A stretch of DNA of 64,000 nt from NCBI GenBank assembly GCA_963920705.1, contig OY987228.1, positions 16,537,187 to 16,601,186 of the forward strand. Reading direction: 5' to 3'. This DNA is from Odiellus spinosus. Its lineage: Eukaryota; Arthropoda; Arachnida; Opiliones; Phalangiidae. Both the position numbers and the translations under genes were made by a program. The notes under the pieces were generated by a model. The model worked only from the letters and a program-made list of their open reading frames with translations. It had not been told where the DNA came from and ran no database searches. Positions 36,506 through 64,000 of the stretch are shown in pieces; the stretch's first letter is position 1; the number at the start of each line of letters is the position of its first letter.

Positions 36506-36551
36506 TCGATAAAAAAATCACCTGTTGTTAGGTTTCATTCTGCCTTTAAAG
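36506..36551. mobile_element. Solo terminus of the CTTTAAAG inverted-repeat element
   Basis: The sequence matches the right end of the element at 41474-42057: ATCACCTGTTGTTAGGTTTC then ATTCTGCCTTTAAAG. It lies directly against the left border of the 7SL island. Confidence 0.6.
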
Positions 36552-36636
36552 TTATTTTTTATGCTTTTGATATATGATTTTGTTAAACTAAATAGATTTA
36601 TGTCAACTAAGTGATATCTTTCGATTAGTGTCATCA

Positions 36637-36938: not shown

Positions 36939-37093
36939 GGATTAATTTTCTATAAAATTGATGCTTTTGGACTGGCGTAAGGGCGAAGGTCAAATTATTT
37001 TAGGCGTTATTGTTTTCAAGCTTTTGATATATGATTTCTTTAACTAGATAATTTTATGTAACTATAAGTGATATATTGGGATCAGTCCCAACA

Positions 37094-37395
37094 GCTGGGA
37101 GTCGTGGCGAACTCCTGTAATCCAGCGAATTGGAAGCTAGAATCGTTGAACGGTCTGAGGTTGGGAATCCTATGACTCATTGACCCGTGTAGATCGGATG
37201 TCCGCGCTAAGCCAGGCGTCAATATGGTGACCTCGGGGTAGCCCGTGGGTAACCAGGTTGTTCTAACGAGGAGCGAATCGGTTCAGGGCAGCAATGAAGC
37301 AGACTAAAGTTCCCGCGTCTAGCAGTAGTGGGTTAGCGTTCGAGAGCGGGCTGTGGGTCATAGCCTAACCGATAATGGCCGAACTCGATTCTTTT
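37094..37395 (+). ncRNA. SRP (7SL) RNA gene, island copy 2
   Basis: Intact, with GCAA loop and TTTT. It shares GCGAATTGG, CTATGACTC and GGTTCAGG with main-array copies at 54216, 55586 and 61983, so it belongs to the same sequence type despite the distance. Confidence 0.95.
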
Positions 37396-37550
37396 GGATT
37401 AATTTTCTATAAAATTGATGCTTTTGGACTGGCGTAAGGGCGAAGGTCAAATTATTTTAGGCGTTATTGTTTTCAAGCTTTTGATATATGATTTCTTTAA
37501 CTAGATAATTTTATGTAACTATAAGTGATATATTGGGATCAGTCCCAACA

Positions 37551-37852
37551 GCTGGGAGTCGTGGCGAACTCCTGTAATCCAGCGACTTGGAAGCTAGAAT
37601 CGTTGAACGGTCTGAGGATGGGAATCCTACGGCTTATTGACCCGTGTCGATGGGATGTCCGCGCTAAGCCAGGCGTCAATATGGTGACCTCGGGGTAGCC
37701 CGTGGGTAACCAGGTTGTTCTAACGAGGAGTGAATCGGTCCAGGGCAGCAATGAAGCAGACTAAAGTTCCCGCGTCAAGCAATAGTGGGTTAGCGTTCGA
37801 GAGTGGGCTGTGAGTCATAGCCTAACCGATAATGGCCGAACTCGATTCTTTT
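37551..37852 (+). ncRNA. SRP (7SL) RNA gene, island copy 3, partly decayed
   Basis: It has A at nt 68 like island copy 1 but keeps A at nt 275, so this helix 5 pair is lost. Further changes are CGATGGGATG for CGATCGGATG, AGCAATAGTGGG for AGCAGTAGTGGG, and GTGAGTCA for GTGGGTCA, which breaks the TGACCC/GGGTCA helix. TTTT is present. It is at the decaying right border and is probably a weak or pseudo copy. Confidence 0.85.
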
Positions 37853-37889
37853 GATTTAATTTTCTATAAAATTTATACTTTTGGACTGG

Positions 37890-39040
37890 CTTTAATTTCG
37901 TGGAACTTATTTTCGTTTTAATTAAGGCAATTGGGAACCATCTCATTAGTGGGGGATAATTGGTTATTTATGTAATCTTATTTTCCAGGAGAAGAATTGA
38001 GTAAAACTTGGCCCCATTAGTTGCAAACTTCTAAGCTATTCCCACAGGGAATTAGAATTCGTGTTTCCGAATTTCTGTCTTACATAATCGAGTTTAAAAG
38101 AAGATAAGGCCCATCGCACACCTATCTAATTTGATTCTATTTTTGTATGATCGTCTATATTTATACAAGTTAAAATATTTTCATTTAAACAACAACTACA
38201 ATATTTATAGGGATTATTAAGTCAACTGGCAAGTATTTTTATTAGCTGCATAATTTATGCAATAAAACATTCAAGTACAACAAATATTTGCATCGAAACG
38301 TCTTTTTTAACTGAAAATAGCTTTTTAGAAAATTAAATCAAAAAGGTTTATCGCCGTCCACTTGGACCATTTCAGATCCGATAAACTATTGGATAAGAAT
38401 CACGATGCTCGCGAGATAAATAAAACAATCTTTTAATGCCGCTAAAATCTTTATATCGAATCTTAAAAAAATGGTGTGAAATAGGCTAACTCGTTAGGAC
38501 GAAAGAACGCGGTCGTTAGTGGCCGATTAACCATATGTAGGGAAAATTATTCCGATCGATGTATTTGCCTCTGGGAAGTCAGTTTTGTTCCCTTTCTCGC
38601 GAAGGAAATCCGAATGATCGATCTCTCCCCCTTCGACAAGTTCGCGCCATAACTTAGTTATGATGACGCGAAATGGGAAGCGGGGGAATAATTGGAAATT
38701 CAATCATTTCTCGAGCCCCAATTCTTCATTTGCGTGCCTTATGGCTTAGTTTTCCCCTCCCGCTCCGATTCGTCTTTATAGCATGGCCGCAATAACATAC
38801 TGTTAATTATAATAGCACCTCAAACTGCTTGTTTCGATTTTGCTTGACAATCGGCATTTCAATCTAAATACCCAAATTCTGTTGGAAATATGCTTTACAT
38901 ACATCTCGCGAGAATGTCAAAATTTGGCTTTCAACTTAACTAGAAGAAGGTATTTTCCCGGGCTTAAATCAATACTTTTACCCCAATATGTTTTCTCGAT
39001 AATCGCTCGACTGAATAAAAATATGAAATAAAAATAGTTT
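37890..39040. other. Non-coding stretch between 7SL island and CAGAGG element
   Basis: No gene or repeat is recognised. The base composition is ordinary for the window. Confidence 0.35.
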
Positions 39041-47664: not shown

Positions 47665-47790
47665 TGGACATGAACATAAGAGCAAATTAAAATACGAGCA
47701 TATGAACGTATGACATATGAACATATGATCATATCACATAGGAACATTTATGATCATATGAAAATATGAGCAAATGAAACAAACATTATT
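47665..47790. repeat. CATATGA-rich degenerate tandem tract
   Basis: Loose repeats of GAACATATGA, GAGCATATGA and GATCATATGA occur up to the start of the 7SL array. They abut the array's first promoter. Confidence 0.65.
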
Positions 47791-47817
47791 AGTGATATAT
47801 TTGGATGACTCGCATTA

Positions 47818-48119
47818 GCTGGGAGTCGTGGCGAACTCCTGTAATGCAGCGTCTTGGAAGCTTGAATCGTTGAACGGTCTGAGGTTGGGAATCCTATGGC
47901 TCATTGACCCGTGTAGATCGGATGTCCGCGCTAAGCCAGGCGTCAATATGGTGACCTCGGGGTAGACCGTGGGTAACCAGGTTGTTCTAACGAGGAGCGA
48001 ATCGGTCCAGGGCAGAAATGAAGCAGACCAAAGTTCCCGCGTCTAGCAGTAGTGGGTTAGCGTTCGAGAGCGGGCTGTGGGTCATAGCCTAACCGATAAT
48101 GGCCGAACTCGATTCTTTT
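47818..48119 (+). ncRNA. 7SL RNA gene, array copy 1 (border copy)
   Basis: First gene of the main array. CCAGC of helix 2 reads GCAGC, and helix 6 GTAGCCC reads GTAGACC, so both stems are weakened. The helix 8 loop is GAAA. TTTT is intact. It is likely a decayed border member. Confidence 0.85.
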
Positions 48120-48252
48120 GGATTAATTTTCTATAAAATTGATGCTTTTGGACTGGCGTAAGGGCGAAGGTCAAATTATTTTAGGCGTTATTGTTTTCAA
48201 GCTTTTGATATATGATTTCTTTAACAAGATAATTTTATGTAACTATAAGTGA

Positions 48253-48258
48253 TATATT
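48253..48258 (+). promoter_or_regulatory. TATA-like box of 7SL unit (representative)
   Basis: TATATT lies 22 to 17 bp upstream of the predicted 5' end (48275) and is present before every copy. It is followed in many units by the palindrome TTGGGATCAGTCCCAA (48257-48272), which other units break, so the palindrome itself is not strictly required. An upstream TATA-like element fits Pol III genes of the 7SL type. Confidence 0.6.
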
Positions 48259-48274
48259 GGGATCAGTCCCAACA

Positions 48275-48576
48275 GCTGGGAGTCGTGGCGAACTCCTGTA
48301 ATCCAGCGACTTGGAAGCTAGAATCGTTGAACGGTCTGAGGTTGGGAATCCTATGGCTCATTGACCTGTGTAGATCGGATGTCCGTGCTAAGCCAGGCGT
48401 CAATATGGAGACCTCGGGGTAGCCCGTGGGTAACCAGGTTGTTCTAACGAGGAGCGAATCGGTCCAGGGCAGAAATGAAGCAGACTAAAGTTCCCGCGTC
48501 TAGCAGTAGTGGGTTAGCGTTCGAGAGCGGGCTGTGGGTCATAGCCTAACCGATAATGGCCGAACTCGATTCTTTT
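48275..48576 (+). ncRNA. 7SL RNA gene, array copy 2
   Basis: Type B variants: GTCCGTGC for GTCCGCGC, and ATGGAGACC for ATGGTGACC. GACCTGTG replaces GACCCGTG, leaving a G-U pair in helix 5. GAAA loop. Confidence 0.93.
48573..48576 (+). terminator. Pol III terminator of 7SL unit (representative)
   Basis: TTTT directly follows the closing GAATCG/CGATTC stem of helix 5. It is present in all full copies except those at 52388, 53302, 59242, 60156 and 62897, where it is CTTT. A second TTTT (in TTAATTTTC) lies about 10 bp further. Confidence 0.8.
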
Positions 48577-48731
48577 GGATTAATTTTCTATAAAATTGAT
48601 GCTTTTGGACTGGCGTAAGGGCGAAGGTCAAATTATTTTAGGCGTTATTGTTTTCAAGCTTTTGATATATGATTTCTTTAACTAGATAATTTTATGTAAC
48701 TATAAGTGATATATTGGGATCAGTCCCAACA

Positions 48732-49033
48732 GCTGGGAGTCGTGGCGAACTCCTGTAATCCAGCGACTTGGAAGCTAGAATCGTTGAACGGTCTGAGGTT
48801 GGGAATCCTATGGCTCATTGACCTGTGTAGATCGGATGTCCGTGCTAAGCCAGGCGTCATTATGGAGACCTCGGGGTAGCCCGTGGGTAACCAGGTTGTT
48901 CTAACGAGGATCGAATAGGTCCAGGGTAGAAATGAAGCAGACTAAAGCTCCCGCGTCTAGCAGTAGTGGGTTAGCGTTCGAGAGCGGGCTGTGGGTCATA
49001 GCCTAACCGATAATGGCCGAACTCGATTCTTTT
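48732..49033 (+). ncRNA. 7SL RNA gene, array copy 3, diverged
   Basis: Type B, with extra changes in conserved places: CATTATGG for CAATATGG, GGATCGAATAGG, and CAGGGTAGAAATG, where the C-G pair below the helix 8 loop becomes T-G. Possibly a pseudo copy. Confidence 0.88.
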
Positions 49034-49188
49034 GGATTAATTTTCTATAAAATTGATGCTTTTGGACTGGCGTAAGGGCGAAGGTCAAATTATTTTAGGC
49101 GTTATTGTTTTCAAGCTTTTGATATATGATTTCTTTAACTAGATAATTTTATGTAACTATAAGTGATATATTTAGATCAGTCTCAACA

Positions 49189-49490
49189 GCTGGGAGTCGT
49201 GGCGAACTCCTGTAATCCAGCGACTTGGAAGCTAGAATCGTTGAACGGTCTGAGGTTGGGAATCCTATGACTCATTGACCCGTGTAGATCGGATGTCCGT
49301 GCTAAGCCAGGCGTCAATATGGAGACCTCGGGGTAGCCCGTGGGTAACCAGGTTGTTGTAACGAGGAGCGAATCGGTCCAGGGCAGAAATGAAGCAGACT
49401 AAAGTTCCCGCGTCTAGCAGTAGTGGGTTAGCGTTCGAGAGCGGGGTGTGGGTCATAGCCTAACCGATAATGGCCGAACTCGATTCTTTT
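49189..49490 (+). ncRNA. 7SL RNA gene, array copy 4
   Basis: Type B with CTATGACTC, TTGTTGTAACG and GCGGGGTGTG for GCGGGCTGTG. GAAA loop, TTTT intact. Confidence 0.92.
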
Positions 49491-49645
49491 GGATTAATTT
49501 TCTATAAAATTGATGCTTTTGGACTGGCGTAAGGGCGAAGGTCAAATTATTTTAGGCGTTATTGTTTTCAAGCTTTTGATATATGATTTCTTTAACTAGA
49601 TAATTTTATGTAACTATAAGTGATATATTTAGATCAGTCCTAACA

Positions 49646-49947
49646 GCTGGGAGTCGTGGCGAACTCCTGTAATCCAGCGAATAGGAAGCTAGAATCGTTG
49701 AACGGTCTGAGGTTGGGAATCCTATGGCTCATTGACCCGTGTAGATCGGATGTCCGCGCTAAGCCAGGCGTCAATATGGTGACCTCGGGGTAGCCCGTGG
49801 GTAACCAGGTTGTTCTAACGAGGAGCGAATCGGTCCAGGGCAGAAATGATGCAGACCAAAGTTCCCGCGTCTAGCAGTAGTGGGTTAGCGTTCGTGAGCG
49901 GGCTGTGGGTCATAGCCTAACCGATAATGGCCGAACTCGATTCTTTT
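49646..49947 (+). ncRNA. 7SL RNA gene, array copy 5, AGCA site mutated
   Basis: GAAGCAG of the helix 8 symmetric loop reads GATGCAG, changing a nearly invariant SRP54-contact position. It also has GCGAATAGG and TTCGTGAGCG. Its 3' part is the source type for copy 20. Confidence 0.9.
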
Positions 49948-50102
49948 GGATTAATTTTCTATAAAATTGATGCTTTTGGACTGGCGTAAGGGCGAAGGTC
50001 AAATTATTTTAGGCGTTATTGTTTTCAAGCTTTTGATATATGATTTCTTTAACTAGATAATTTTATGTAACTATAAGTGATATATTTAGATCAGTCCCAA
50101 CA

Positions 50103-50404
50103 GCTGGGAGTCGTGGCGAACTCCTGTAATCCAGCGACTTGGAAGCTAGAATCGTTGAACGGTCTGAGGTTGGGAATCCTATGGCTCATTGCCCCGTGTA
50201 GATCGGATGTCCGTGCTAAGCCAGGCGTCAATATGGAGACCTCGGGGTAGCCCGTGGGTAACCAGGTTGTTCTAACGAGGAGCGAATCGGTCCAGGGCAG
50301 AAATGAAGCAGACTAAAGTTCCCGCGTCTAGCAGTAGTGGGTTAGCGTTCGAGAGCGGGCTGTGGGTCATAGCCTAACCGATAATGGCCGAACTCGATTC
50401 TTTT
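50103..50404 (+). ncRNA. 7SL RNA gene, array copy 6
   Basis: Type B. TTGCCCCG for TTGACCCG weakens helix 5. TTTT is followed by A instead of G. Counterpart: copy 21. Confidence 0.92.
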
Positions 50405-50559
50405 AGATTAATTTTCTATAAAATTGATGCTTTTGGACTGGCGTAAGGGCGAAGGTCAAATTATTTTAGGCGTTATTGTTTTCAAGCTTTTGATATATGA
50501 TTTCTTTAACTAGATAATTTTATGTAACTATAAGTGATATATTTAGATCAGTCCCAACA

Positions 50560-50861
50560 GCTGGGAGTCGTGGCGAACTCCTGTAATCCAGCGAATTTTA
50601 AGCTAGAATCGTTGAACGGTCTGAGGTTGGGAATCCTATGGCTCATTGACCCGTGTAGATCGGATGTCCGCGCTAAGCCAGGCGTCAATATGGTGACCTC
50701 GGGGTAGCCCGTGGGTAACCAGGTTGTTCTAACGAGGAGCGAATCGGTCCAGGGCAGAAATGAAGCAGACTAAAGTTCCCGCGTCTAGCAGTAGTGGGTT
50801 AGCGTTCGAGAGCGGGCTGTGGGTCATAGCCTAAACGATAATGGCCGAACTCGATTCTTTT
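50560..50861 (+). ncRNA. 7SL RNA gene, array copy 7
   Basis: GCGAATTTTAAGC for GCGACTTGGAAGC, and CCTAAACG for CCTAACCG (nt 276, opposing G67, lost pair). GAAA loop. Counterpart: copy 22, sharing both marks. Confidence 0.92.
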
Positions 50862-51016
50862 GGATTAATTTTCTATAAAATTGATGCTTTTGGACTGGCG
50901 TAAGGGCGAAGGTCAAATTATTTTAGGCGTTATTGTTTTCAAGCTTTTGATATATGATTTCTTTAACTAGATAATTTTATGTAACTATAAGTGATATATT
51001 TAGATCAATCCTAACA

Positions 51017-51318
51017 GCTGGGAGTCGTGGCGAACTCCTGTAATCCAGCGAATTGGAAGCTAGAATCGTTGAACGGTCTGAGGTTGGGAATCCTATGGCT
51101 CATTGACCCGTGTAGATCGGATGTCCGCGCTAAGCCAGGCGTCAATATGGTGACCTCGGGGTAGCCCGTGGGTAACCAGGTTGTTCTAACGAGGAGCGAA
51201 TCGGTCCAGGGCAGAAATGATGCAGACCAAAGTTCCCGCGTCTAGCAGTAGTGGGTTAGCGTTCGAGAGCGGGCTGTGGGTCATAGCCTAACCGATAATG
51301 GCCGAACTCGATTCTTTT
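51017..51318 (+). ncRNA. 7SL RNA gene, array copy 8, AGCA site mutated
   Basis: GATGCAG in helix 8. The upstream palindrome is broken (TTTAGATCAATCCTAA). Counterpart: copy 23. Confidence 0.9.
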
Positions 51319-51473
51319 GGATTAATTTTCTATAAAATTGATGCTTTTGGACTGGCGTAAGGGCGAAGGTCAAATTATTTTAGGCGTTATTGTTTTCAAG
51401 CTTTTGATATATGATTTCTTTAACTAGATAATTTTATGTAGCTATAAGTGATATATTTAGATCAGGCCCAACA

Positions 51474-51775
51474 GCTGGGAGTCGTGGCGAACTCCTGTAA
51501 TCCAGCGACTTGGAAGCTAGAATCGTTGAATGGTCTGAGGTTGGGAATCCTATGGCTCATTGACCCGTGTAGATCGGATGTCCGTGCTAAGCCAGGCGTC
51601 AATATGGAGACCTCGGGGTAGCCCGTGGGTAACCAGGTTGTTCTAACGAGGAGCGAATCGGTCCAGGGCAGAAATGAAGCAGACTAAAGTTCCCGCGTCT
51701 AGCAGTAGTGGGTTAGCGTTCGAGAGCGGGCTGTGGGTCATAGCCTAACCGATAACGGCCGAACTCGATTCTTTT
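51474..51775 (+). ncRNA. 7SL RNA gene, array copy 9
   Basis: Type B with TTGAATGGTC for TTGAACGGTC and GATAACGGCC. Upstream TAGATCAGGCCCAA. Counterpart: copy 24. Confidence 0.92.
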
Positions 51776-51930
51776 GGATTAATTTTCTATAAAATTGATG
51801 CTTTTGGACTGGCGTAAGGGCGAAGGTCAAATTATTTTAGGCGTTATTGTTTTCAAGCTTTTGATATATGATTTCTTTAACTAGATAATTTTATGTAACT
51901 ATAAGTGATATATTGGGATCAGTCCCAACA

Positions 51931-52232
51931 GCAGGGAGTCGTGGCGAACTCCTGTAATCCAGCGACTTGGAAGCTAGAATCGTTGAACGATCTGAGGTTG
52001 GGGATCCTATGGCTCGTTGACCCGTGTAGATCGGATGTCCGCGCTAAGCCAGGCGTCAATATGGTGACCTCGGGGTAGCCCGTGGGTAACCAGGTTGTTC
52101 TAACGAGGAGCGAATCGGTTCAGGGCAGCAATGAAGCAGGCTAAAGTTCCCGCGTCTAGCAGTAGTGGGTTAGCGTTCGAGAGCGGGCTGTGGGTCATAG
52201 CCTAACCGATAACGGCCGAACTCGATTCTTTT
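51931..52232 (+). ncRNA. 7SL RNA gene, array copy 10
   Basis: The 5' end reads GCAGGGAG, an A-A mismatch in helix 2. AACGATCTG, TTGGGGATCC, GCTCGTTG and AAGCAGGCT are further marks. From here on most copies have the GCAA loop. Counterpart: copy 25. Confidence 0.92.
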
Positions 52233-52387
52233 GGATTAATTTTCTATAAAATTGATGCTTTTGGACTGGCGTAAGGGCGAAGGTCAAATTATTTTAGGCG
52301 TTATGGTTTTCAAGCTTTTGATATATGATTTCTTTAACTAGATAATTTTATGTAACTATAAGTGATATATTGGGATAAGTCCCAACA

Positions 52388-52689
52388 GCTGGGAGTCGTG
52401 GCGAACTCCTGTAAACCAGCGACTTGGAAGCTAGAATCGTTGAACGGTCTGAGGTTGGGAATCCTATGGCTCATTGACCCGTGTAGATCGGATGTCCGCG
52501 CTTAGCCAGGCGTCAATATGGTGACCTCGGGGTAGCCCGTGGGTAACCAGGTTGTTCTAACGAGGAGCGAATCGGTTCAGGGCAGCAATGAAGCAGACTA
52601 AAGTTCCCGCGTCTAGCAGTAGTGGGTTAGCGTTCGAGAGCGGGCTGTGGGTCATAGCCTGACCGATAATGGCCGAACTCGATTCCTTT
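52388..52689 (+). ncRNA. 7SL RNA gene, array copy 11, weak terminator
   Basis: The terminator is CCTTTG (three T). GTAAACCAGC, CGCTTAGCC and CCTGACC are marks; the last gives a tolerated U-G pair in helix 5. Its spacer has GATGTTTTTGG and TTAGTGGTT. Counterpart: copy 26. Confidence 0.9.
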
Positions 52690-52844
52690 GAGTTAATTTT
52701 CTATAAAATTGATGTTTTTGGACTGGCGTAAGGGCGAAGGTCAAATTATTTTAGTGGTTATTGTTTTCAAGCTTTTGATATATGATTTCTTTAACTAGAT
52801 AATTTTATGTAACTATAAGTGATATATTGGGATCAGTCCCAACA

Positions 52845-53146
52845 GCTGGGAGTCGTGGCGAACTCCTGTAATCCAGCGACTTGGAAGCTAGAATCGTTGA
52901 ACGGTCTGAGGTTGGGAATCCTATGGCTCATTGACCCGTGTAGATCGGATGTCCGCGCTAAGCCAGGCGTCAATATGGTGACCTCGGGGTAGCCCGTGGG
53001 TAACCAGGTTGTTCTAACGAGGAGCGAATCGGTTCAGGGCAGCAATGAAGCAGACTAAAGTTCCCGCGTCTAGCAGTAGTGGGTTAGCGTTCGAGAGCGG
53101 GCTGTGGGTCATAGCCTAACCGATAATGGCCGAACTCGATTCTTTT
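52845..53146 (+). ncRNA. 7SL RNA gene, array copy 12 (consensus-like)
   Basis: Best reference copy. Helix 2 is nt 1-5/29-33; helix 3 nt 6-9/18-21; TGTAA nt 23-27. Helix 5 is GAATCG 47-52/293-298, CGGTC 58-62/GGCCG 284-288, GGTTGGG 66-72/CCTAACC 271-277 and TGACCC 88-93/GGGTCA 262-267. The helix 6 GTAG loop is nt 145-148; the helix 8 GCAA loop nt 198-201; AGCA nt 205-208; TTTT nt 299-302. All known binding sites of SRP9/14, SRP19 and SRP54 are present. Confidence 0.96.
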
Positions 53147-53301
53147 GGATTAATTTTCTATAAAATTGATGCTTTTGGACTGGCGTAAGGGCGAAGGTCA
53201 AATTATTTTAGGCGTTATTGTTTTCAAGCTTTTGATATATGATTTCTTTAACTAGATAATTTTATGTAGCTATAAGTGATATATTTAGATCAGTCCCAAC
53301 A

Positions 53302-53603
53302 GCTGGGAGTCGTGGCGAACTCCTGTAATCCAGCGACTTGGAAGCTAGAATCGTTGAACGGTCTGAGGTTGGGAATCCTATGGCTCATTGACCCGTGTAG
53401 ATCGGATGTCCGCGCTTAGCCAGGCGTCAATATGGTGACCTCGGGGTAGCCCGTGGGTAACCAGGTTGTTCTAACGAGGAGCGAATCGGTTCAGGGCAGC
53501 AATGAAGCAGACTAAAGTTCCCGCGTCTAGCAGTAGTGGGTTAGCGTTCGAGAGCGGGCTGTGGGTCATAGCCTGACCGATAATGGCCGAACTCGATTCC
53601 TTT
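53302..53603 (+). ncRNA. 7SL RNA gene, array copy 13, weak terminator
   Basis: Same marks as copy 11 (CGCTTAGCC, CCTGACC, CCTTTG terminator), so 11-12 and 13-14 form a local two-unit duplication. Counterpart: copy 28. Confidence 0.9.
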
Positions 53604-53758
53604 GAGTTAATTTTCTATAAAATTGATGTTTTTGGACTGGCGTAAGGGCGAAGGTCAAATTATTTTAGTGGTTATTGTTTTCAAGCTTTTGATATATGAT
53701 TTCTTTAACTAGATAATTTTATGTAACTATAAGTGATATATTGGGATCAGTCCCAACA

Positions 53759-54060
53759 GCTGGGAGTCGTGGCGAACTCCTGTAATCCAGCGACTTGGAA
53801 GCTAGAATCGTTGAACGGTCTGAGGTTGGGAATCCTATGGCTCATTGACCCGTGTAGATCGGATGTCCGCGCTAAGCCAGGCGTCAATATGGTGACCTCG
53901 GGGTAGCCCGTGGGTAACCAGGTTGTTCTAACGAGGAGCGAATCGGTTCAGGGCAGCAATGAAGCAGACTAAAGTTCCCGCGTCTAGCAGTAGTGGGTTA
54001 GCGTTCGAGAGCGGGCTGTGGGTCATAGCCTAACCGATAATGGCCGAACTCGATTCTTTT
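53759..54060 (+). ncRNA. 7SL RNA gene, array copy 14
   Basis: Consensus-like, nearly identical to copy 12. Counterpart: copy 29. Confidence 0.95.
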
Positions 54061-54215
54061 GGATTAATTTTCTATAAAATTGATGCTTTTGGACTGGCGT
54101 AAGGGCGAAGGTCAAATTATTTTAGGCGTTATTGTTTTCAAGCTTTTGATATATGATTTCTTTAACTAGATAATTTTATGTAACTATAAGTGATATATTG
54201 GGATCAGTCCCAACA

Positions 54216-54517
54216 GCTGGGAGTCGTGGCGAACTCCTGTAATCCAGCGAATTGGAAGCTAGAATCGTTGAACGGTCTGAGGTTGGGAATCCTATGACTC
54301 ATTGACCCGTGTAGATCGGATGTCCGCGCTAAGCCAGGCGTCAATATGGTGACCTCGGGGTAGCCCGTGGGTAACCAGGTTGTTCTAACGAGGAGCGAAT
54401 CGGTTCAGGGCAGCAATGAAGCAGACTAAAGTTCCCGCGTCTAGCAGTAGTGGGTTAGCGTTCGAGAGCGGGCTGTGGGTCATAGCCTAACCGATAATGG
54501 CCGAACTCGATTCTTTT
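54216..54517 (+). ncRNA. 7SL RNA gene, array copy 15
   Basis: GCGAATTGG and CTATGACTC type, intact stems. Same type as copies 18 and 32 and island copy 2. Confidence 0.95.
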
Positions 54518-54672
54518 GGATTAATTTTCTATAAAATTGATGCTTTTGGACTGGCGTAAGGGCGAAGGTCAAATTATTTTAGGCGTTATTGTTTTCAAGC
54601 TTTTGATATATGATTTCTTTAACTAGATAATTTTATGTAACTATAAGTGATATATTGGGATCAGTCCCAACA

Positions 54673-54974
54673 GCTGGGAGTCGTGGCGAACTCCTGTAAT
54701 CCAGCGAATTGGAAGCTAGAATCGTTGAACGGTCTGAGGTTGAGAATCCTATGACTCATTGACCCGTGTAGATCGGATGTCCGCGCTAAGCCAGGCGTCA
54801 ATATGGTGACCTCGGGGTAGCCCGTGGGTAACCAGGTTGTTCTAACGAGGAGCGAATCGGTTCAGGGCAGCAATGAAGCAGACTAAAGTTCCCGCGTCTA
54901 GCAGTAGTGGGTTAGCGTTCGAGAGCGGGCTGTGGGTCATAGCCTAACCGATAATGGCCGAACTCGATTCTTTT
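54673..54974 (+). ncRNA. 7SL RNA gene, array copy 16
   Basis: As copy 15 but with GGTTGAGAATCC (G71 to A) in the helix 5 segment. Counterparts: copies 19 and 33. Confidence 0.93.
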
Positions 54975-55129
54975 GGATTAATTTTCTATAAAATTGATGC
55001 TTTTGGACTGGCGTAAGGGCGAAGGTCAAATTATTTTAGGCGTTATTGTTTTCAAGCTTTTGATATATGATTTCTTTAACTAGATAATTTTATGTAACTA
55101 TAAGTGATATATTGGGATAAGTCCCAACA

Positions 55130-55430
55130 GCTGGGAGTCGTGGCGAACTCCTGTAATCCAGCGACTTGGAAGCTAGAATCGTTGAACGGTATGAGGTTGG
55201 GAATCCTATGGCTCATTGACCCGTGTAGATCGGATGTCCGCGCTAATCCAGCGTCAATATGGTGACCTCGGGGTAGCCCGTGGGTAACCAGGTTGTTCTA
55301 TCGAGGAGCGAATCGGTTCAGGGCAGCAATGAAGCAGACTAAAGTTCCCGCGTCTAGCAGTAGTGGGTTAGCGTTCGAGAGCGGGCTGTGGGTCATAGCC
55401 TGACCGATAATGGCCGAACTCGATTCTTTT
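55130..55430 (+). ncRNA. 7SL RNA gene, array copy 17, 1-bp deletion
   Basis: GCTAATCCAGCGTC replaces GCTAAGCCAGGCGTC, a 1-bp loss next to helix 6. It also has CGGTATGAGG and TTCTATCGAGG. TTTT intact. Counterpart: copy 34, which shares the deletion. Confidence 0.9.
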
Positions 55431-55585
55431 GGATTAATTTTCTATAAAATTGATGCTTTTGGACTGGCGTAAGGGCGAAGGTCAAATTATTTTAGGCGTT
55501 ATTGTTTTCAAGCTTTTGATATATGATTTCTTTAACTAGATAATTTTATGTAACTATAAGTGATATATTGGGATCAGTCCCAACA

Positions 55586-55887
55586 GCTGGGAGTCGTGGC
55601 GAACTCCTGTAATCCAGCGAATTGGAAGCTAGAATCGTTGAACGGTCTGAGGTTGGGAATCCTATGACTCATTGACCCGTGTAGATCGGATGTCCGCGCT
55701 AAGCCAGGCGTCAATATGGTGACCTCGGGGTAGCCCGTGGGTAACCAGGTTGTTCTAACGAGGAGCGAATCGGTTCAGGGCAGCAATGAAGCAGACTAAA
55801 GTTCCCGCGTCTAGCAGTAGTGGGTTAGCGTTCGAGAGCGGGCTGTGGGTCATAGCCTAACCGATAATGGCCGAACTCGATTCTTTT
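55586..55887 (+). ncRNA. 7SL RNA gene, array copy 18
   Basis: GCGAATTGG and CTATGACTC type, intact. Confidence 0.95.
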
Positions 55888-56042
55888 GGATTAATTTTCT
55901 ATAAAATTGATGCTTTTGGACTGGCGTAAGGGCGAAGGTCAAATTATTTTAGGCGTTATTGTTTTCAAGCTTTTGATATATGATTTCTTTAACTAGATAA
56001 TTTTATGTAACTATAAGTGATATATTGGGATCAGTCCCAACA

Positions 56043-56344
56043 GCTGGGAGTCGTGGCGAACTCCTGTAATCCAGCGAATTGGAAGCTAGAATCGTTGAAC
56101 GGTCTGAGGTTGAGAATCGTATGACTCATTGACCCGTGTAGATCGGATGTCCGCGCTAAGCCAGGCGTCAATATGGTGACCTCGGGGTAGCCCGTGGGTA
56201 ACCAGGTTGTTCTAACGAGGAGCGAATCGGTTCAGGGCAGCAATGAAGCAGACTAAAGTTCCCGCGTCTAGCAGTAGTGGGTTAGCGTTCGAGAGCGGGC
56301 TGTGGGTCATAGCCTAACCGATAATGGCCGAACTCGATTCTTTT
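56043..56344 (+). ncRNA. 7SL RNA gene, array copy 19
   Basis: As copy 16, with an extra GAGAATCGTATG change. Confidence 0.92.
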
Positions 56345-56499
56345 GGATTAATTTTCTATAAAATTGATGCTTTTGGACTGGCGTAAGGGCGAAGGTCAAA
56401 TTATTTTAGGCGTTATTGTTTTCAAGCTTTTGATATATGATTTCTTTAACTAGATAATTTTATGTAACTATAAGTGATATATTGGGATAAGTCCCAACA

Positions 56500-56801
56500 G
56501 CTGGGAGTCGTGGCGAACTCCTGTAATCCAGCGACTTGGAAGCTAGAATCGTTGAACGGTCTGAGGGTGGGAATCCTATGGCTCATTGACCCGTGTAGAT
56601 CGGATGTCCGCGCTAAGCCAGGCGTCAATATGGTGACCTCGGGGTAGCCCGTGGGTAACCAGGTTGTTCTAACGAGGAGCGAATCGGTCCAGGGCAGAAA
56701 TGATGCAGACCAAAGTTCCCGCGTCTAGCAGTAGTGGGTTAGCGTTCGTGAGCGGGCTGTGGGTCATAGCCTAACCGATAATGGCCGAACTCGATTCTTT
56801 T
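56500..56801 (+). ncRNA. 7SL RNA gene, array copy 20, chimeric
   Basis: The 5' part (upstream GGGATAAGTCCC, CTGAGGGTGGG) matches copy 35; the 3' part (GGTCCAGG, GATGCAG, TTCGTGAGCG) matches copy 5. The crossover lies between about 56567 and 56688. T68 is G, giving a G-A mismatch in helix 5, and AGCA is mutated. Confidence 0.9.
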
Positions 56802-56956
56802 GGATTAATTTTCTATAAAATTGATGCTTTTGGACTGGCGTAAGGGCGAAGGTCAAATTATTTTAGGCGTTATTGTTTTCAAGCTTTTGATATATGATTT
56901 CTTTAACTAGATAATTTTATGTAACTATAAGTGATATATTTAGATCAGTCCCAACA

Positions 56957-57258
56957 GCTGGGAGTCGTGGCGAACTCCTGTAATCCAGCGACTTGGAAGC
57001 TAGAATCGTTGAACGGTCTGAGGTTGGGAATCCTATGGCTCATTGACCCGTGTAGATCGGATGTCCGTGCTAAGCCAGGCGTCAATATGGAGACCTCGGG
57101 GTAGCCCGTGGGTAACCAGGTTGTTCTAACGAGGAGCGAATCGGTCCAGGGCAGAAATGAAGCAGACTAAAGTTCCCGCGTCTAGCAGTAGTGGGTTAGC
57201 GTTCGAGAGCGGGCTGTGGGTCATAGCCTAACCGATAATGGCCGAACTCGATTCTTTT
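56957..57258 (+). ncRNA. 7SL RNA gene, array copy 21
   Basis: Type B, matching copy 6 including TTTTAGATTAA after the gene, but with the normal TTGACCCG. Confidence 0.93.
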
Positions 57259-57413
57259 AGATTAATTTTCTATAAAATTGATGCTTTTGGACTGGCGTAA
57301 GGGCGAAGGTCAAATTATTTTAGGCGTTATTGTTTTCAAGCTTTTGATATATGATTTCTTTAACTAGATAATTTTATGTAACTATAAGTGATATATTTAG
57401 ATCAGTCCCAACA

Positions 57414-57715
57414 GCTGGGAGTCGTGGCGAACTCCTGTAATCCAGCGAATTTTAAGCTAGAATCGTTGAACGGTCTGAGGTTGGGAATCCTATGGCTCAT
57501 TGACCCGTGTAGATCGGATGTCCGCGCTAAGCCAGGCGTCAATATGGTGACCTCGGGGTAGCCCGTGGGTAACCAGGTTGTTCTAACGAGGAGCGAATCG
57601 GTCCAGGGCAGAAATGAAGCAGACTAAAGTTCCCGCGTCTAGCAGTAGTGGGTTAGCGTTCGAGAGCGGGCTGTGGGTCATAGCCTAAACGATAATGGCC
57701 GAACTCGATTCTTTT
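57414..57715 (+). ncRNA. 7SL RNA gene, array copy 22
   Basis: Shares GCGAATTTTAAGC and CCTAAACG with copy 7. Confidence 0.92.
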
Positions 57716-57870
57716 GGATTAATTTTCTATAAAATTGATGCTTTTGGACTGGCGTAAGGGCGAAGGTCAAATTATTTTAGGCGTTATTGTTTTCAAGCTT
57801 TTGATATATGATTTCTTTAACTAGATAATTTTATGTAACTATAAGTGATATATTTAGATCAATCCTAACA

Positions 57871-58172
57871 GCTGGGAGTCGTGGCGAACTCCTGTAATCC
57901 AGCGAATTGGAAGCTAGAATCGTTGAACGGTCTGAGGTTGGGAATCCTATGGCTCATTGACCCGTGTAGATCGGATGTCCGCGCTAAGCCAGGCGTCAAT
58001 ATGGTGACCTCGGGGTAGCCCGTGGGTAACCAGGTTGTTCTAACGAGGAGCGAATCGGTCCAGGGCAGAAATGATGCAGACCAAAGTTCCCGCGTCTAGC
58101 AGTAGTGGGTTAGCGTTCGAGAGCGGGCTGTGGGTCATAGCCTAACCGATAATGGCCGAACTCGATTCTTTT
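57871..58172 (+). ncRNA. 7SL RNA gene, array copy 23, AGCA site mutated
   Basis: Matches copy 8, including GATGCAG in helix 8. Confidence 0.9.
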
Positions 58173-58327
58173 GGATTAATTTTCTATAAAATTGATGCTT
58201 TTGGACTGGCGTAAGGGCGAAGGTCAAATTATTTTAGGCGTTATTGTTTTCAAGCTTTTGATATATGATTTCTTTAACTAGATAATTTTATGTAGCTATA
58301 AGTGATATATTTAGATCAGGCCCAACA

Positions 58328-58629
58328 GCTGGGAGTCGTGGCGAACTCCTGTAATCCAGCGACTTGGAAGCTAGAATCGTTGAATGGTCTGAGGTTGGGA
58401 ATCCTATGGCTCATTGACCCGTGTAGATCGGATGTCCGTGCTAAGCCAGGCGTCAATATGGAGACCTCGGGGTAGCCCGTGGGTAACCAGGTTGTTCTAA
58501 CGAGGAGCGAATCGGTCCAGGGCAGAAATGAAGCAGACTAAAGTTCCCGCGTCTAGCAGTAGTGGGTTAGCGTTCGAGAGCGGGCTGTGGGTCATAGCCT
58601 AACCGATAACGGCCGAACTCGATTCTTTT
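58328..58629 (+). ncRNA. 7SL RNA gene, array copy 24
   Basis: Type B, matching copy 9 (TTGAATGGTC, GATAACGGCC). Confidence 0.92.
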
Positions 58630-58784
58630 GGATTAATTTTCTATAAAATTGATGCTTTTGGACTGGCGTAAGGGCGAAGGTCAAATTATTTTAGGCGTTA
58701 TTGTTTTCAAGCTTTTGATATATGATTTCTTTAACTAGATAATTTTATGTAACTATAAGTGATATATTGGGATCAGTCCCAACA

Positions 58785-59086
58785 GCAGGGAGTCGTGGCG
58801 AACTCCTGTAATCCAGCGACTTGGAAGCTAGAATCGTTGAACGATCTGAGGTTGGGGATCCTATGGCTCGTTGACCCGTGTAGATCGAATGTCCGCGCTA
58901 AGCCAGGCGTCAATATGGTGACCTCGGGGTAGCCCGTGGGTAACCAGGTTGTTCTAACGAGGAGCGAATCGGTTCAGGGCAGCAATGAAGCAGGCTAAAG
59001 TTCCCGCGTCTAGCAGTAGTGGGTTAGCGTTCGAGAGCGGGCTGTGGGTCATAGCCTAACCGATAACGGCCGAACTCGATTCTTTT
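58785..59086 (+). ncRNA. 7SL RNA gene, array copy 25
   Basis: Matches copy 10 (GCAGGGAG, AACGATCTG); GATCGAATG for GATCGGATG is private. Confidence 0.92.
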
Positions 59087-59241
59087 GGATTAATTTTCTA
59101 TAAAATTGATGCTTTTGGACTGGCGTAAGGGCGAAGGTCAAATTATTTTAGGCGTTATGGTTTTCAAGCTTTTGATATATGATTTCTTTAACTAGATAAT
59201 TTTATGTAACTATAAGTGATATATTGGGATAAGTCCCAACA

Positions 59242-59543
59242 GCTGGGAGTCGTGGCGAACTCCTGTAATCCAGCGACTTGGAAGCTAGAATCGTTGAACG
59301 GTCTGAGGTTGGGAATCCTATGGCTCATTGACCCGTGTAGATCGGATGTCCGCGCTTAGCCAGGCGTCAATATGGTGACCTCGGGGTAGCCCGTGGGTAA
59401 CCAGGTTGTTCTAACGAGGAGCGAATCGGTTCAGGGCAGCAATGAAGCAGACTAAAGTTCCCGCGTCTAGCAGTAGTGGGTTAGCGTTCGAGAGCGGGCT
59501 GTGGGTCATAGCCTGACCGATAATGGCCGAACTCGATTCCTTT
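59242..59543 (+). ncRNA. 7SL RNA gene, array copy 26, weak terminator
   Basis: Matches copy 11 (CGCTTAGCC, CCTGACC, CCTTTG) but has the normal GTAATCCAGC. Confidence 0.9.
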
Positions 59544-59698
59544 GAGTTAATTTTCTATAAAATTGATGTTTTTGGACTGGCGTAAGGGCGAAGGTCAAAT
59601 TATTTTAGTGGTTATTGTTTTCAAGCTTTTGATATATGATTTCTTTAACTAGATAATTTTATGTAACTATAAGTGATATATTGGGATCAGTCCCAACA

Positions 59699-60000
59699 GC
59701 TGGGAGTCGTGGCGAACTCCTGTAATCCAGCGACTTGGAAGCTAGAATCGTTGAACGGTCTGAGGTTGGGAATCCTATGGCTCATTGACCCGTGTAGATC
59801 GGATGTCCGCGCTAAGCCAGGCGTCAATATGGTGACCTCGGGGTAGCCCGTGGGTAACCAGGTTGTTCTAACGAGGAGCGAATCGGTTCAGGGCAGCAAT
59901 GAAGCAGACTAAAGTTCCCGCGTCTAGCAGTAGTGGGTTAGCGTTCGAGAGCGGGCTGTGGGTCATAGCCTAACCGATAATGGCCGAACTCGATTCTTTT
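59699..60000 (+). ncRNA. 7SL RNA gene, array copy 27
   Basis: Consensus-like, matches copy 12. Confidence 0.95.
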
Positions 60001-60155
60001 GGATTAATTTTCTATAAAATTGATGCTTTTGGACTGGCGTAAGGGCGAAGGTCAAATTATTTTAGGCGTTATTGTTTTCAAGCTTTTGATATATGATTTC
60101 TTTAACTAGATAATTTTATGTAGCTATAAGTGATATATTTAGATCAGTCCCAACA

Positions 60156-60457
60156 GCTGGGAGTCGTGGCGAACTCCTGTAATCCAGCGACTTGGAAGCT
60201 AGAATCGTTGAACGGTCTGAGGTTGGGAATCCTATGGCTCATTGACCCGTGTAGATCGGATGTCCGCGCTTAGCCTGGCGTCAATATGGTGACCTCGGGG
60301 TAGCCCGTGGGTAACCAGGTTGTTCTAACGAGGAGCGAATCGGTTCAGGGCAGCAATGAAGCAGACTAAAGTTCCCGCGTCTAGCAGTAGTGGGTTAGCG
60401 TTCGAGAGCGGGCTGTGGGTCATAGCCTGACCGATAATGGCCGAACTCGATTCCTTT
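60156..60457 (+). ncRNA. 7SL RNA gene, array copy 28, weak terminator
   Basis: Matches copy 13, with a private CTTAGCCTGGCG change. Confidence 0.9.
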
Positions 60458-60612
60458 GAGTTAATTTTCTATAAAATTGATGTTTTTGGACTGGCGTAAG
60501 GGCGAAGGTCAAATTATTTTAGTGGTTATTGTTTTCAAGCTTTTGATATATGATTTCTTTAACTAGATAATTTTATGTAACTATAAGTGATATATTGGGA
60601 TCAGTCCCAACA

Positions 60613-60914
60613 GCTGGGAGTCGTGGCGAACTCCTGTAATCCAGCGACTTGGAAGCTAGAATCGTTGAACGGTCTGAGGTTGGGAATCCTATGGCTCATT
60701 GACCCGTGTAGATCGGATGTCCGCGCTAAGCCAGGCGTCAATATGGTGACCTCGGGGTAGCCCGTGGGTAACCAGGTTGTTCTAACGAGGAGCGAATCGG
60801 TTCAGGGCAGCAATGAAGCAGACTAAAGTTCCCGCGTCTAGCAGTAGTGGGTTAGCGTTCGAGAGCGGGCTGTGGGTCATAGCCTAACCGATAATGGCCG
60901 AACTCGATTCTTTT
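60613..60914 (+). ncRNA. 7SL RNA gene, array copy 29
   Basis: Consensus-like gene, matches copy 14. The spacer has a 1-bp loss (GTAAGTCGAAGG). Confidence 0.95.
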
Positions 60915-61068
60915 GGATTAATTTTCTATAAAATTGATGCTTTTGGACTGGCGTAAGTCGAAGGTCAAATTATTTTAGGCGTTATTGTTTTCAAGCTTTT
61001 GATATATGATTTCTTTAACTAGATAATTTTATGTAGCTATAAGTGATATATTTAGATCAGTCCCAACA

Positions 61069-61370
61069 GCTGGGAGTCGTGGCGAACTCCTGTAATCCAG
61101 CGACTTGGAAGCTAGAATCGTTGAACGGTCTGAGGTTGGGAATCCTATGGCTCATTGACCCGTGTAGATCGGATGTCCGCGCTAAGCCAGGCGTCAATAT
61201 AGTGACCTCGGGGTAGCCCGTGGGTAACCAGGTTGTTCTAACGAGGAGCGAATCGGTTCAGGGCAGCAATGAAGCAGACTAAAGTTCCCGCGTCTAGCAG
61301 TAATGGGTTAGCGTTCGAGAGCGGGCTGTGGGTCATAGCCTAACCGATAATGGCCGAACTCGATTCTTTT
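61069..61370 (+). ncRNA. 7SL RNA gene, array copy 30
   Basis: One of two copies with no counterpart in the first block. ATATAGTGACC for ATATGGTGACC and AGTAATGGG for AGTAGTGGG alter two conserved motifs. Confidence 0.9.
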
Positions 61371-61525
61371 GGATTAATTTTCTATAAAATTGATGCTTTT
61401 GGACTGGCGTAAGGGCGAAGGTCAAATTATTTTAGGCGTTATTGTTTTCAAGCTTTTGATATATGATTTCTTTAACTAGATAATTTTATGTAACTATAAG
61501 TGATATATTGGGAGCAGTCCCAACA

Positions 61526-61827
61526 GCTGGGAGTCGTGGCGATTTCCTGTAATCCAGCGACTTAGAAGCTAGAATCGTTGAACGGTCTGAGGTTGGGAAT
61601 CCTATGGCGCATTGACCCGTGTAGATCGGATGTCCGCGCTAAGCCAGGCGTCAATATGGTGACCTCGGGGTAGCCCGTGGGTAACCAGGTTGTTCTAACG
61701 AGGAGCGAATCGGTTCAGGGCAGCAATGAAGCAGACTAAAGTTCCCGCGTCTAGCAGTAGTGGGTTAGCGTTCGAGAGCGGGCTGTGGGTCATAGCCTAA
61801 CCGATAATGGCCGAACTCGATTCTTTT
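61526..61827 (+). ncRNA. 7SL RNA gene, array copy 31
   Basis: GGCGATTTCCTG for GGCGAACTCCTG weakens helix 3; GACTTAGAAG and GGCGCATTG are private changes. Confidence 0.9.
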
Positions 61828-61982
61828 GGATTAATTTTCTATAAAATTGATGCTTTTGGACTGGCGTAAGGGCGAAGGTCAAATTATTTTAGGCGTTATT
61901 GTTTTCAAGCTTTTGATATATGATTTCTTTAACTAGATAATTTTATGTAACTATAAGTGATATATTGGGATCAGTCCCAACA

Positions 61983-62284
61983 GCTGGGAGTCGTGGCGAA
62001 CTCCTGTAATCCAGCGAATTGGAAGCTAGAATCGTTGAACGGTCTGAGGTTGGGAATCCTATGACTCATTGACCCGTGTAGATCGGATGTCCGCGCTAAG
62101 CCAGGCGTCAATATGGTGACCTCGGGGTAGCCCGTGGGTAACCAGGTTGTTCTAACGAGGAGCGAATCGGTTCAGGGCAGCAATGAAGCAGACTAAAGTT
62201 CCCGCGTCTAGCAGTAGTGGGTTAGCGTTCGAGAGCGGGCTGTGGGTCATAGCCTAACCGATAATGGCCGAACTCGATTCTTTT
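61983..62284 (+). ncRNA. 7SL RNA gene, array copy 32
   Basis: Matches copy 15; offset from it is now 7767 bp. Confidence 0.95.
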
Positions 62285-62439
62285 GGATTAATTTTCTATA
62301 AAATTGATGCTTTTGGACTGGCGTAAGGGCGAAGGTCAAATTATTTTAGGCGTTATTGTTTTCAAGCTTTTGATATATGATTTCTTTAACTAGATAATTT
62401 TATGTAACTATAAGTGATATATTGGGATCAGTCCCAACA

Positions 62440-62741
62440 GCTGGGAGTCGTGGCGAACTCCTGTAATCCAGCGAATTGGAAGCTAGAATCGTTGAACGGT
62501 CTGAGGTTGAGAATCCTATGACTCATTGACCCGTGTAGATCGGATGTCCGCGCTAAGCCAGGCGTCAATATGGTGACCTCGGGGTAGCCCGTGGGTAACC
62601 AGGTTGTTCTAACGAGGAGCGAATCGGTTCAGGGCAGCAATGAAGCAGACTAAAGTTCCCGCGTCTAGCAGTAGTGGGTTAGCGTTCGAGAGCGGGCTGT
62701 GGGTCATAGCCTAACCGATAATGGCCGAACTCGATTCTTTT
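62440..62741 (+). ncRNA. 7SL RNA gene, array copy 33
   Basis: Matches copy 16 (GGTTGAGAATCC). Confidence 0.93.
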
Positions 62742-62896
62742 GGATTAATTTTCTATAAAATTGATGCTTTTGGACTGGCGTAAGGGCGAAGGTCAAATTA
62801 TTTTAGGCGTTATTGTTTTCAAGCTTTTGATATATGATTTCTTTAACTAGATAATTTTATGTAACTATAAGTGATATATTGGGATAAGTCCCAACA

Positions 62897-63197
62897 GCTG
62901 GGAGTCGTGGCGAACTCCTGTAATCCAGCGACTTGGAAGCTAGAATCGTTGAACGGTATGAGGTTGGGAATCCTATGGCTCATTGACCCGTGTAGATCGG
63001 ATATCCGCGCTAATCCAGCGTCAATATGGTGACCTCGGGGTAGCCCGTGGGTAACCAGGTTGTTCTATCGAGGAGCGAATCGGTTCAGGGCAGCAATGAA
63101 GCAGACTAAAGTTCCCGCGTCTAGCAGTAGTGGGTTAGCGTTCGAGAGCGGGCTGTGGGTCATAGCCTGACCGATAATGGCCGAACTCGATTCCTTT
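62897..63197 (+). ncRNA. 7SL RNA gene, array copy 34, deletion and weak terminator
   Basis: Shares the 1-bp deletion, CGGTATGAGG and TTCTATCGAGG with copy 17. Adds GATATCCGCG for GATGTCCGCG and a CCTTTG terminator that copy 17 lacks. Confidence 0.88.
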
Positions 63198-63352
63198 GAA
63201 TTAATTTTCAATAAAATTGATGCTTTTGGACTGGCGTAAGGGCGAAGGTCAAATTATTTTAGGCGTTATTGTTTACAAGCTTTTGATATATGATTTCTTT
63301 AACTAGATAATTTTATGTAACTATAAGTGATATATTGGGATAATTCCCAGCA

Positions 63353-63654
63353 GCTGGGAGTCGTGGCGAACTCCTGTAATCCAGCGACTTGGAAGCTAGA
63401 ATCGTTGAACGGTCTGAGGGTGGGAATCCTATGGCTCATTGACCCGTGTAGATCGGATGTCCGCGCTAAGCCAGGCGTCAATATGGTGACCTCGGGGTAG
63501 CCCGTGGGTAACCAGGTTGTTCTAACGAGGAGCGAATCGGTTCAGGGCAGCAATGAAGCAGACTAAAGTTCCCGCGTCTAGCAGTAGTGGGTTAGCGTTC
63601 GAGAGCGGGCTGTGGGTTATAGCCTAACCGATAACGGCCGAACTCGATTCTTTT
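63353..63654 (+). ncRNA. 7SL RNA gene, array copy 35
   Basis: CTGAGGGTGGG (G-A mismatch at 68:275) and GTGGGTTATAGCC. Upstream GGATAATTCCCAGC. It resembles the 5' part of copy 20. Confidence 0.92.
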
Positions 63655-63809
63655 GGATTAATTTTCTATAAAATTGATGCTTTTGGACTGGCGTAAGGGC
63701 GAAGGTCAAATTATTTTAGGCGTTATTGTTTTCAAGCTTTTGATATATGATTTCTTTAACTAGATAATTTTATGTAACTATAAGTGATATATTGGGATAA
63801 GTCCCAACA

Positions 63810-64000
63810 GCTGGGAGTCTTGGCGAACTCCTGTAATCCATCGACTTGGAAGCTAGAATCGTTGAACGATCTGAGGTTGGGGATCCTATGGCTCATTGAC
63901 CCGTGTAGATCGGATGTCCGCGCTAAGCCAGGCGTCAAAATGGTGACCTCGGGGTAGCCCGTGGGTTACCAGGTTGTTCTAACGAGGAGCGAATCGGTTC
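63810..64000 (+). ncRNA. 7SL RNA gene, array copy 36, cut by window end
   Basis: First 191 nt only. GAGTCTTGG for GAGTCGTGG, and CCATCGAC for CCAGCGAC breaks helix 2. AACGATCTG and TTGGGGATCC link it to copies 10 and 25. Confidence 0.9.

Follow-up and report, generated by a model that had tools for sequence, protein, structure and literature searches.

A tandem array of signal recognition particle (7SL) RNA genes beside two dispersed 7SL genes in the genome of Odiellus spinosus

Introduction

The RNA of the signal recognition particle (SRP), 7SL RNA, is essential, and the common picture of its genes is of a few copies scattered through the genome. A locus of the arachnid Odiellus spinosus (Opiliones, Phalangiidae), where 7SL genes follow one another head to tail in short units, raises the question of how such an array arises and whether it serves as a supply of SRP RNA, as a specialised set of genes or merely as a satellite. 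The window analysed here is the whole stretch of 64,000 nucleotides of contig OY987228.1, called C4 below (C4:16,537,187-16,601,186), in a genome of 443 Mb and 286 contigs; 144 kb were read in all, and "window-extended" coordinates are the window numbering carried on past 64,000. An earlier note, made from the letters of the window, had described 36 units of 457 bp between 47,793 and 64,000 and had proposed that this genome has organised 7SL like 5S ribosomal DNA (rDNA), with high dosage and concerted evolution of the copies. On balance we favor a reading in which a third 7SL gene was amplified in place into the array, some of its units are transcribed by RNA polymerase III (Pol III), and exchange between units is ongoing.

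Results

Extent and composition of the array

It was proposed in the earlier note that the units should be checked by a covariance search with the Rfam SRP model. In the scan with the metazoan model (RF00017, gathering score 70 bits) the window yielded 39 matches. Each of them lies on the + strand and exceeds 70 bits (39/39), and the 38 uncut genes score 189-223 bits. Since 38 of the 39 matches are full length and the remaining one is cut by the window end, the identification of the units as 7SL holds, and the tandem array of 7SL genes is confirmed. Chance or low-complexity similarity is ruled out by the RF00017 scores and E-values. The array consensus carries a GNRA-type loop, GCAA, which we take to be the motif of SRP RNA helix 8; it reads GAAA in 13 of 35 inner units. 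The array features and three reference genes are as follows.

Positions 47787..64000, + strand: main array of 7SL genes in head-to-tail units of 457 bp (Tandem Repeats Finder, TRF; RF00017).
Positions 36551..37890, + strand: outlying cluster of three 7SL units (TRF, RF00017, unit comparison).
Positions 52845..53145, + strand: 7SL gene that equals the array consensus exactly, 222.5 bits, model 1-299 (RF00017).
Positions 51017..51317, + strand: top-scoring gene of the window, 222.6 bits, tied by the gene at 57,871 (RF00017).
Positions 62897..63196, + strand: lowest-scoring complete gene of the window, 188.8 bits, with a one-base deletion and a TTT end (RF00017).

The main array accounts for 36 matches from 47,818 on. 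Thirty-five of them cover the model in full (1-299), with E-values between 1e-59 and 6e-50; the 36th (63,810; 96.5 bits) runs off the window and is complete in the sequence that follows. The unit spacing is 457 bp, with 456 bp in three places, and TRF counts 35.5 copies with 97% match over 47,787-64,000. The 36 units of 457 bp described before are therefore there, apart from the three shorter spacings. The bounds given to the array need to be widened, since the last main-array gene ends at 65,016 (window-extended), about 1 kb past the window, which brings the main array to 38 units, and the cluster at 36,551-37,890 had been overlooked. Downstream, a gap of about 19 kb is followed by three copies at 83.9-85.1 kb and, about 4 kb further on, by two copies at 89.6-90.3 kb (both window-extended); in two of these five copies the gene has lost about 27 and 11 alignment positions, respectively. 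In the assembly the array locus on C4 thus holds 46 copies over about 54 kb, besides one 7SL fragment of 54 bases. The G+C content over the array is 45-47% with positive GC skew, against 29-39% in other 2-kb steps and 43% in the step over the three-unit cluster.

Exchange between units

The 34 inner units that were compared differ on average at 10.9 of 457 positions (2.4%), and 26 of the 34 are distinct. At a lag of 15 units the mean distance falls to 5.1, against 10.9 overall, and a block of nine units recurs at this lag.

Positions 50043..54155, + strand: nine-unit block, with its copy 15 units downstream at 56,897-61,008.

The block and its copy show 0-2 differences per unit and six in total, and three units of the main array have exactly the sequence of the middle unit in the outlying cluster. 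The recurrence of nine units 15 units downstream argues that copies are being exchanged and is the footprint of recent block duplication or unequal exchange. In this respect the concerted evolution proposed earlier is borne out.

Two dispersed 7SL genes and the conserved fold

Two dispersed 7SL genes, both full length, lie elsewhere in the genome, one at C4:17,139,609 (228.2 bits), which is 0.5 Mb away from the array, and the other at C6:18,170,368 (226.2 bits). The three paralogous lineages are well separated: identity is 86.0% between the array and the C6 gene, 80.7% between the array and the C4 gene, and 79.0% between the C6 and C4 genes, so that any two of them are unlike at 42-63 of 300 aligned positions. 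Beyond a few bases adjoining the gene, the flanks of the array unit match those of neither dispersed locus, and the flanks of the two dispersed loci are unmatched save for two short low-complexity matches, so that the gene alone has been kept. When the genome was searched at the DNA level with either dispersed gene, the listings showed 40 matches apiece, out of 49 and 50 first-look candidates, and all of those listed lie at the C4 array or at the two dispersed genes; the 46 units, the two dispersed genes and the one fragment would account for 49 candidates. In the genome-wide SRP family search 26 of 2,761 candidates were scored, so that more distant copies may be missed. No dispersed, truncated or A-tailed 7SL copy occurs among the matches listed genome-wide, which fall at three loci only. 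An origin as retroposed copies or a 7SL short interspersed element (SINE) was rejected, since the units lie head to tail including their upstream sequence and the listed matches are confined to the three loci. A mobile-element origin was likewise rejected; no 7SL-type small-RNA-derived long terminal repeat (LTR) element is reported to have been found (PMC10886601).

We next consider the RNA fold. The pairing reference was the cmscan structure of the array gene (120 pairs), which favors the array slightly; on it 100/120 standard pairs are formed by the array consensus, 99/120 by the C6 gene and 97/120 by the C4 gene. Changes of the same number and kind, scattered randomly over the paired sites in 2000 draws per gene, left a mean of 85.4 pairs for C6 (maximum 99) and of 81.8 for C4 (maximum 93), so that at least one random draw attained the C6 value. 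In C6, 4 two-sided changes keep the pair, where 1.0 would be expected (maximum 5), 6 pairs are broken and 5 are mended; in C4, 8 two-sided changes keep the pair, where 2.0 would be expected (maximum 7), 8 pairs are broken and 5 are mended. The pairing of the metazoan SRP RNA (RF00017) is thus kept between the diverged lineages, and all three look like sound SRP RNAs. The conservation of the fold in all three suggests that the founder of the array was a working gene, and we infer that it had long been under selection as SRP RNA. It follows from the two diverged, well-folded dispersed genes that 7SL is not organised solely as an array in this genome, and their presence makes 7SL expression from another locus a live option.

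Promoter and terminator signals

The sequence TATAAG is found at -31 to -26 in 44 of the 46 copies, and the two copies that lack it (36,637 and 47,818) are each the first of their own cluster. The box per unit reported earlier is thereby found in 35 of the 36 main-array units.

Positions 52785..52844, + strand: sequence upstream of the consensus gene, where TATAAG occupies -31 to -26.
Positions 53143..53146, + strand: terminal TTTT of the consensus gene, presumed to be its Pol III terminator.
Positions 52388..52688, + strand: unit with the T run cut to TTT.

Five U6 matches were found in the genome, and the upstream regions of the best three were compared with the array. The position of TATAAG is close to that of the TATA box of the two U6 genes on C18, which have TATATAAG at -31 to -24; the U6 copy on C11 has a poorer AAAATAAG. 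In a scan of 60 bases upstream of the consensus gene, sites at -39 and -22 match TATATAAG as well as the site at -33 to -26. The dispersed C4 gene has TATATC from -32 and a better match at -41, and the dispersed C6 gene has no good TATA match near -31. At the gene end the T run is TTTT in 41 of the 46 copies and TTT in five; within the main array, where a TTTT terminator had been noted for most units, the counts are 31 and five of 36. The other TTT-ended units are those at 53,302, 59,242, 60,156 and 62,897. A second TTTT follows the first by seven bases in the array consensus, and both dispersed genes end in T6. We presume that the TATA-like box and the minimal T4 are putative Pol III signals.

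Constraint within the array and in 5S controls

The gene and the spacer were compared in 35 inner 7SL units, with u1, u3 and u4, which border other sequence, excluded from the 38 uncut units. Tight 5S arrays with 470-bp units on C113 (868,500-896,000; 50 genes read, 49 units used) and C14 (9,445,000-9,455,000; 11 whole genes, 10 units) served as controls. Elsewhere, on C11 (13.24-13.28 Mb), 5S copies lie at least 1 kb apart, with a long T run directly 3' in the five examined.

Among the 88 distinct substitutions in the 46 7SL copies, 44 break a pair, against 39.1 expected (standard deviation 3.8), and sites that vary within the array are as frequent where the three lineages agree (60/224) as where they do not (23/77; P = 0.66). 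Segregating sites are as frequent in the gene (49/301) as in the spacer (22/156; P = 0.59), and the same is true of variants at a frequency of at least 10% (12/301 and 9/156; P = 0.48) and of at least 20% (6/301 and 2/156; P = 0.72). The 7SL variants are therefore scattered over the structure at random, and the gene is not conserved above the spacer at any of the three frequency cut-offs. In the pooled 5S arrays, variants of at least 20% are confined to the spacer (gene 0/238, spacer 25/702; P = 0.0008), and the 7SL gene differs from the pooled 5S gene at this cut-off (6/301 versus 0/238; P = 0.037) and from the C113 5S gene at the 10% cut-off (12/301 versus 0/119; P = 0.023). The pooled contrast is driven mainly by C14 (gene 0/119, spacer 21/351 at 20%; P = 0.003) and is weakened by C113, which alone gives 0/119 versus 4/351 at 20% (P = 0.58), 0/119 versus 10/351 at 10% (P = 0.07) and, for all variants, 18/119 versus 42/351 with no depletion in the gene (P = 0.43). 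We concluded that constraint on single 7SL units is probably weak or absent. The locus thus resembles 5S rDNA in layout and less clearly in selection, and the proposal that 7SL is organised here like 5S rDNA stands as far as layout and exchange are concerned, but not with regard to the two dispersed genes or to conservation of gene over spacer.

Other repeats and genes

The U2 small nuclear RNA (snRNA) genes were also surveyed, with 46 of 35,385 candidates scored. Three canonical U2 genes (C15:15,594,100, C15:15,595,700 and C7:8,355,056; 188 bits) are accompanied by at least 41 copies of a diverged U2 within C17:2,009,755-2,798,388 (loci L042, L043, L046 and L047; 162.1 bits each), and two more diverged copies are found on C270 and C182 (159.3 and 156.6 bits). 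Many of the C17 variants are spaced about 11.57 kb apart, on the minus strand and then on the plus strand. The first 67 bases of the variant are identical to canonical U2, and the 3' part is different. The pattern appears to be the same as for 7SL, that is, good dispersed genes and an amplified variant.

Two satellites lie in or near the 7SL locus. A 178-bp satellite occupies 14,678-24,375 of the window in 54.5 copies, about 12 kb from the first 7SL cluster; it has 346 matches in the genome, and among those listed some lie on C1, C5, C11 and C13, the C11 array being about 32 kb from a 5S cluster. A complex satellite with the motif CCGTGTCACCCCTA, nested periods of 57-487 bp and one break (about 65.7-82.6 kb, window-extended; L009 and L010) separates the main 7SL array from the small 7SL cluster that comes next. 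Two further families are probably small non-autonomous DNA transposons: one of about 340 bp (9,126-9,464, 34,487-34,827 and 3,254-3,582 in the window; five copies in 144 kb, 92-97% alike), bounded by terminal inverted repeats about 40 bases long, and one of 420 bp (including 39,048-39,467; three copies, 98% alike) with inverted ends of about 43 bases. A 17-bp minisatellite, TGTCCGACTCGGCGTTC, spans 45,276-45,415 in 8.2 copies, with open frames on both strands. The pattern (TTAGG)5 has 10,296 matches in the genome (an overlapping count) and the reversed pattern 0; on C1 the matches lie at many interior places and not just at contig ends.

For protein genes, ten open reading frames (ORFs) were picked by eye from 249 stop-to-stop frames (at least 45 amino acids, outside repeats), and their searches gave one sub-threshold EB-module match (18.5 bits, cut-off 24.3) and one DUF6617 match (E = 0.15); with ten frames searched, protein genes may still be present in the window. 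Separately from these ten, one 7tm_6 match passes its cut-off (39.1 versus 25.8 bits), and a PDB search with it gave no match; together with the (TTAGG)5 repeats, this match would suggest an insect.

Discussion

Origin and role of the array

The favored reading is that a third, formerly single, working 7SL gene on C4 was amplified in place to give units of 457 bp in 46 copies, and that the array grows and homogenises through unequal exchange of blocks of units. Every intact unit carries a TATA-like box of its own, the complete 7SL gene and a presumed, minimal terminator for Pol III, and the presence of such units suggests that at least some are transcribed by Pol III. Their transcripts may be assembled into SRP and would add to the SRP RNA pool supplied by the two dispersed genes, raising its dosage as the earlier note had proposed, and single units would be individually dispensable and gather mutations under little or no selection.

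Several observations weigh against this reading or parts of it. The T run of the array is just T4 (T3 in five units), compared with T6 in the dispersed genes, and both dispersed genes outscore the array (228.2 and 226.2 bits versus a maximum of 222.6 bits in the window). A silent satellite would show the same absence of constraint. In the other direction, some constraint on single units is possible, since only three of 12 common variants (frequency of at least 10%) change pairing, against 5.1 expected (P = 0.15), and the ratio of pair-keeping to pair-breaking changes is 5/3 for common and 17/41 for rare variants (P = 0.105); with a uniform-substitution null, which ignores transition bias, the values are P = 0.010 for common and P = 0.059 for rare variants.

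It is possible, if rather unlikely, that the locus is now a 7SL-derived satellite, in which the founder was functional but the array has become silent or nearly so, is kept by unequal exchange, and leaves the supply of SRP RNA to the dispersed genes. The random placement of variants on the RNA structure would fit such a satellite, as would the common variants that are as frequent in the gene as in the spacer, unlike those of the pooled 5S arrays; so would the deletions and T3 ends of some copies, the higher scores and T6 of the dispersed genes, and a neighborhood rich in satellites. However, most units retain an intact gene, TATA-like box and T4, the common variants lean toward pair-preserving changes (though not significantly), and it is chiefly the C14 sample of 10 units that produces the 5S contrast, the 49-unit C113 sample being weak in this regard.

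The oocyte and somatic 5S genes of Xenopus offer a parallel for a dual gene system, and a comparable arrangement here would make the array a source of tissue- or stage-specific 7SL (for heavy secretion or oogenesis) beside constitutive dispersed genes. The array gene is 14% and 19% off the dispersed C6 and C4 genes with its fold kept, the upstream sequences differ between the array and the dispersed genes, and U2 snRNA is alike in having three canonical and at least 41 variant copies, all of which would suit this arrangement; the variants of the array, on the other hand, look unconstrained. We regard it as doubtful, and the same goes for a two-tier SRP RNA in the wider sense, with constitutive single genes and a variant array for certain tissues or stages and possibly a specialised SRP. 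That the assembler inflated or collapsed a short array, as the near-exact block repeats at the 15-unit lag could suggest, is very improbable, since 26 of the 34 inner units are distinct, the contig around the array is 25 Mb long, different sequence borders the array on either side, and the 144 kb read are free of N.

Relation to known systems

A tandem layout of 7SL genes has seldom been described. It is not unheard-of in animals: a single sentence on a draft assembly of the hydroid Hydractinia echinata names SRP RNA among tandem arrays, in a paper that also describes U2 and further small RNAs in arrays (PMC11067881). The likeness to Odiellus is an SRP RNA tandem array in an animal genome; in the passages of that paper that deal with arrays, SRP RNA is not in the list of arrays common to the two main assemblies, and unit structure, dispersed paralogues and constraint, which are given here, are not treated (PMC11067881). 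Eight SRP RNA candidates, one of them almost canonical, are given for Schistosoma mansoni in the relevant part of PMC2770079. A small-RNA cluster with SL RNA, SRP RNA, transfer RNAs (tRNAs) and U6 is described in the corresponding passage on the dinoflagellate Karenia brevis (PMC7022241); it is mixed and non-animal, unlike the pure 7SL array reported here. In the open-licence literature searched, no 7SL array was named for insects, which is weak evidence of absence, and we found no description of an array beside two diverged dispersed genes and without detectable constraint in that literature, which was covered mostly as listings.

Among 7SL-derived genes, the 4.5SH RNA genes of mouse-like rodents are Pol III genes in hundreds of copies, each in a tandem repeat, and have a TATA-like box at -31/-24, as do the array units, according to the part of PMC10137851 that treats them. 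These genes derive from the B1 SINE and lie in units of 4-5 kb, whereas the present units are of 457 bp with complete 7SL genes (PMC10137851, same part). The 7SL-derived SINEs (Alu and B1) belong to the same RNA family, but here no dispersed retroposed copies occur among the matches listed. The 5S rDNA arrays, including those on C113 and C14, share with the 7SL array the head-to-tail short units with a Pol III gene and a spacer, and the unit lengths are similar (470 and 457 bp); they differ in that the 5S gene has no variants of at least 20% (0/238 sites) and the 7SL gene has six (6/301; P = 0.037). A direct link between the two was rejected, since the 7SL and 5S units share just weak matches of 19-21 bases (E 0.16 and 0.56).

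Significance

If the two-tier reading were true, the amplified U2 variants on C17 would provide another example of this strategy. Together with the two old, diverged dispersed genes, the locus forms a natural experiment on whether the dosage of SRP RNA is limiting and whether SRP RNA variants can be specialised. It may equally serve as a natural test of selection on redundant copies of a structured RNA, for which the 5S arrays of similar unit length in the same genome provide an internal control.

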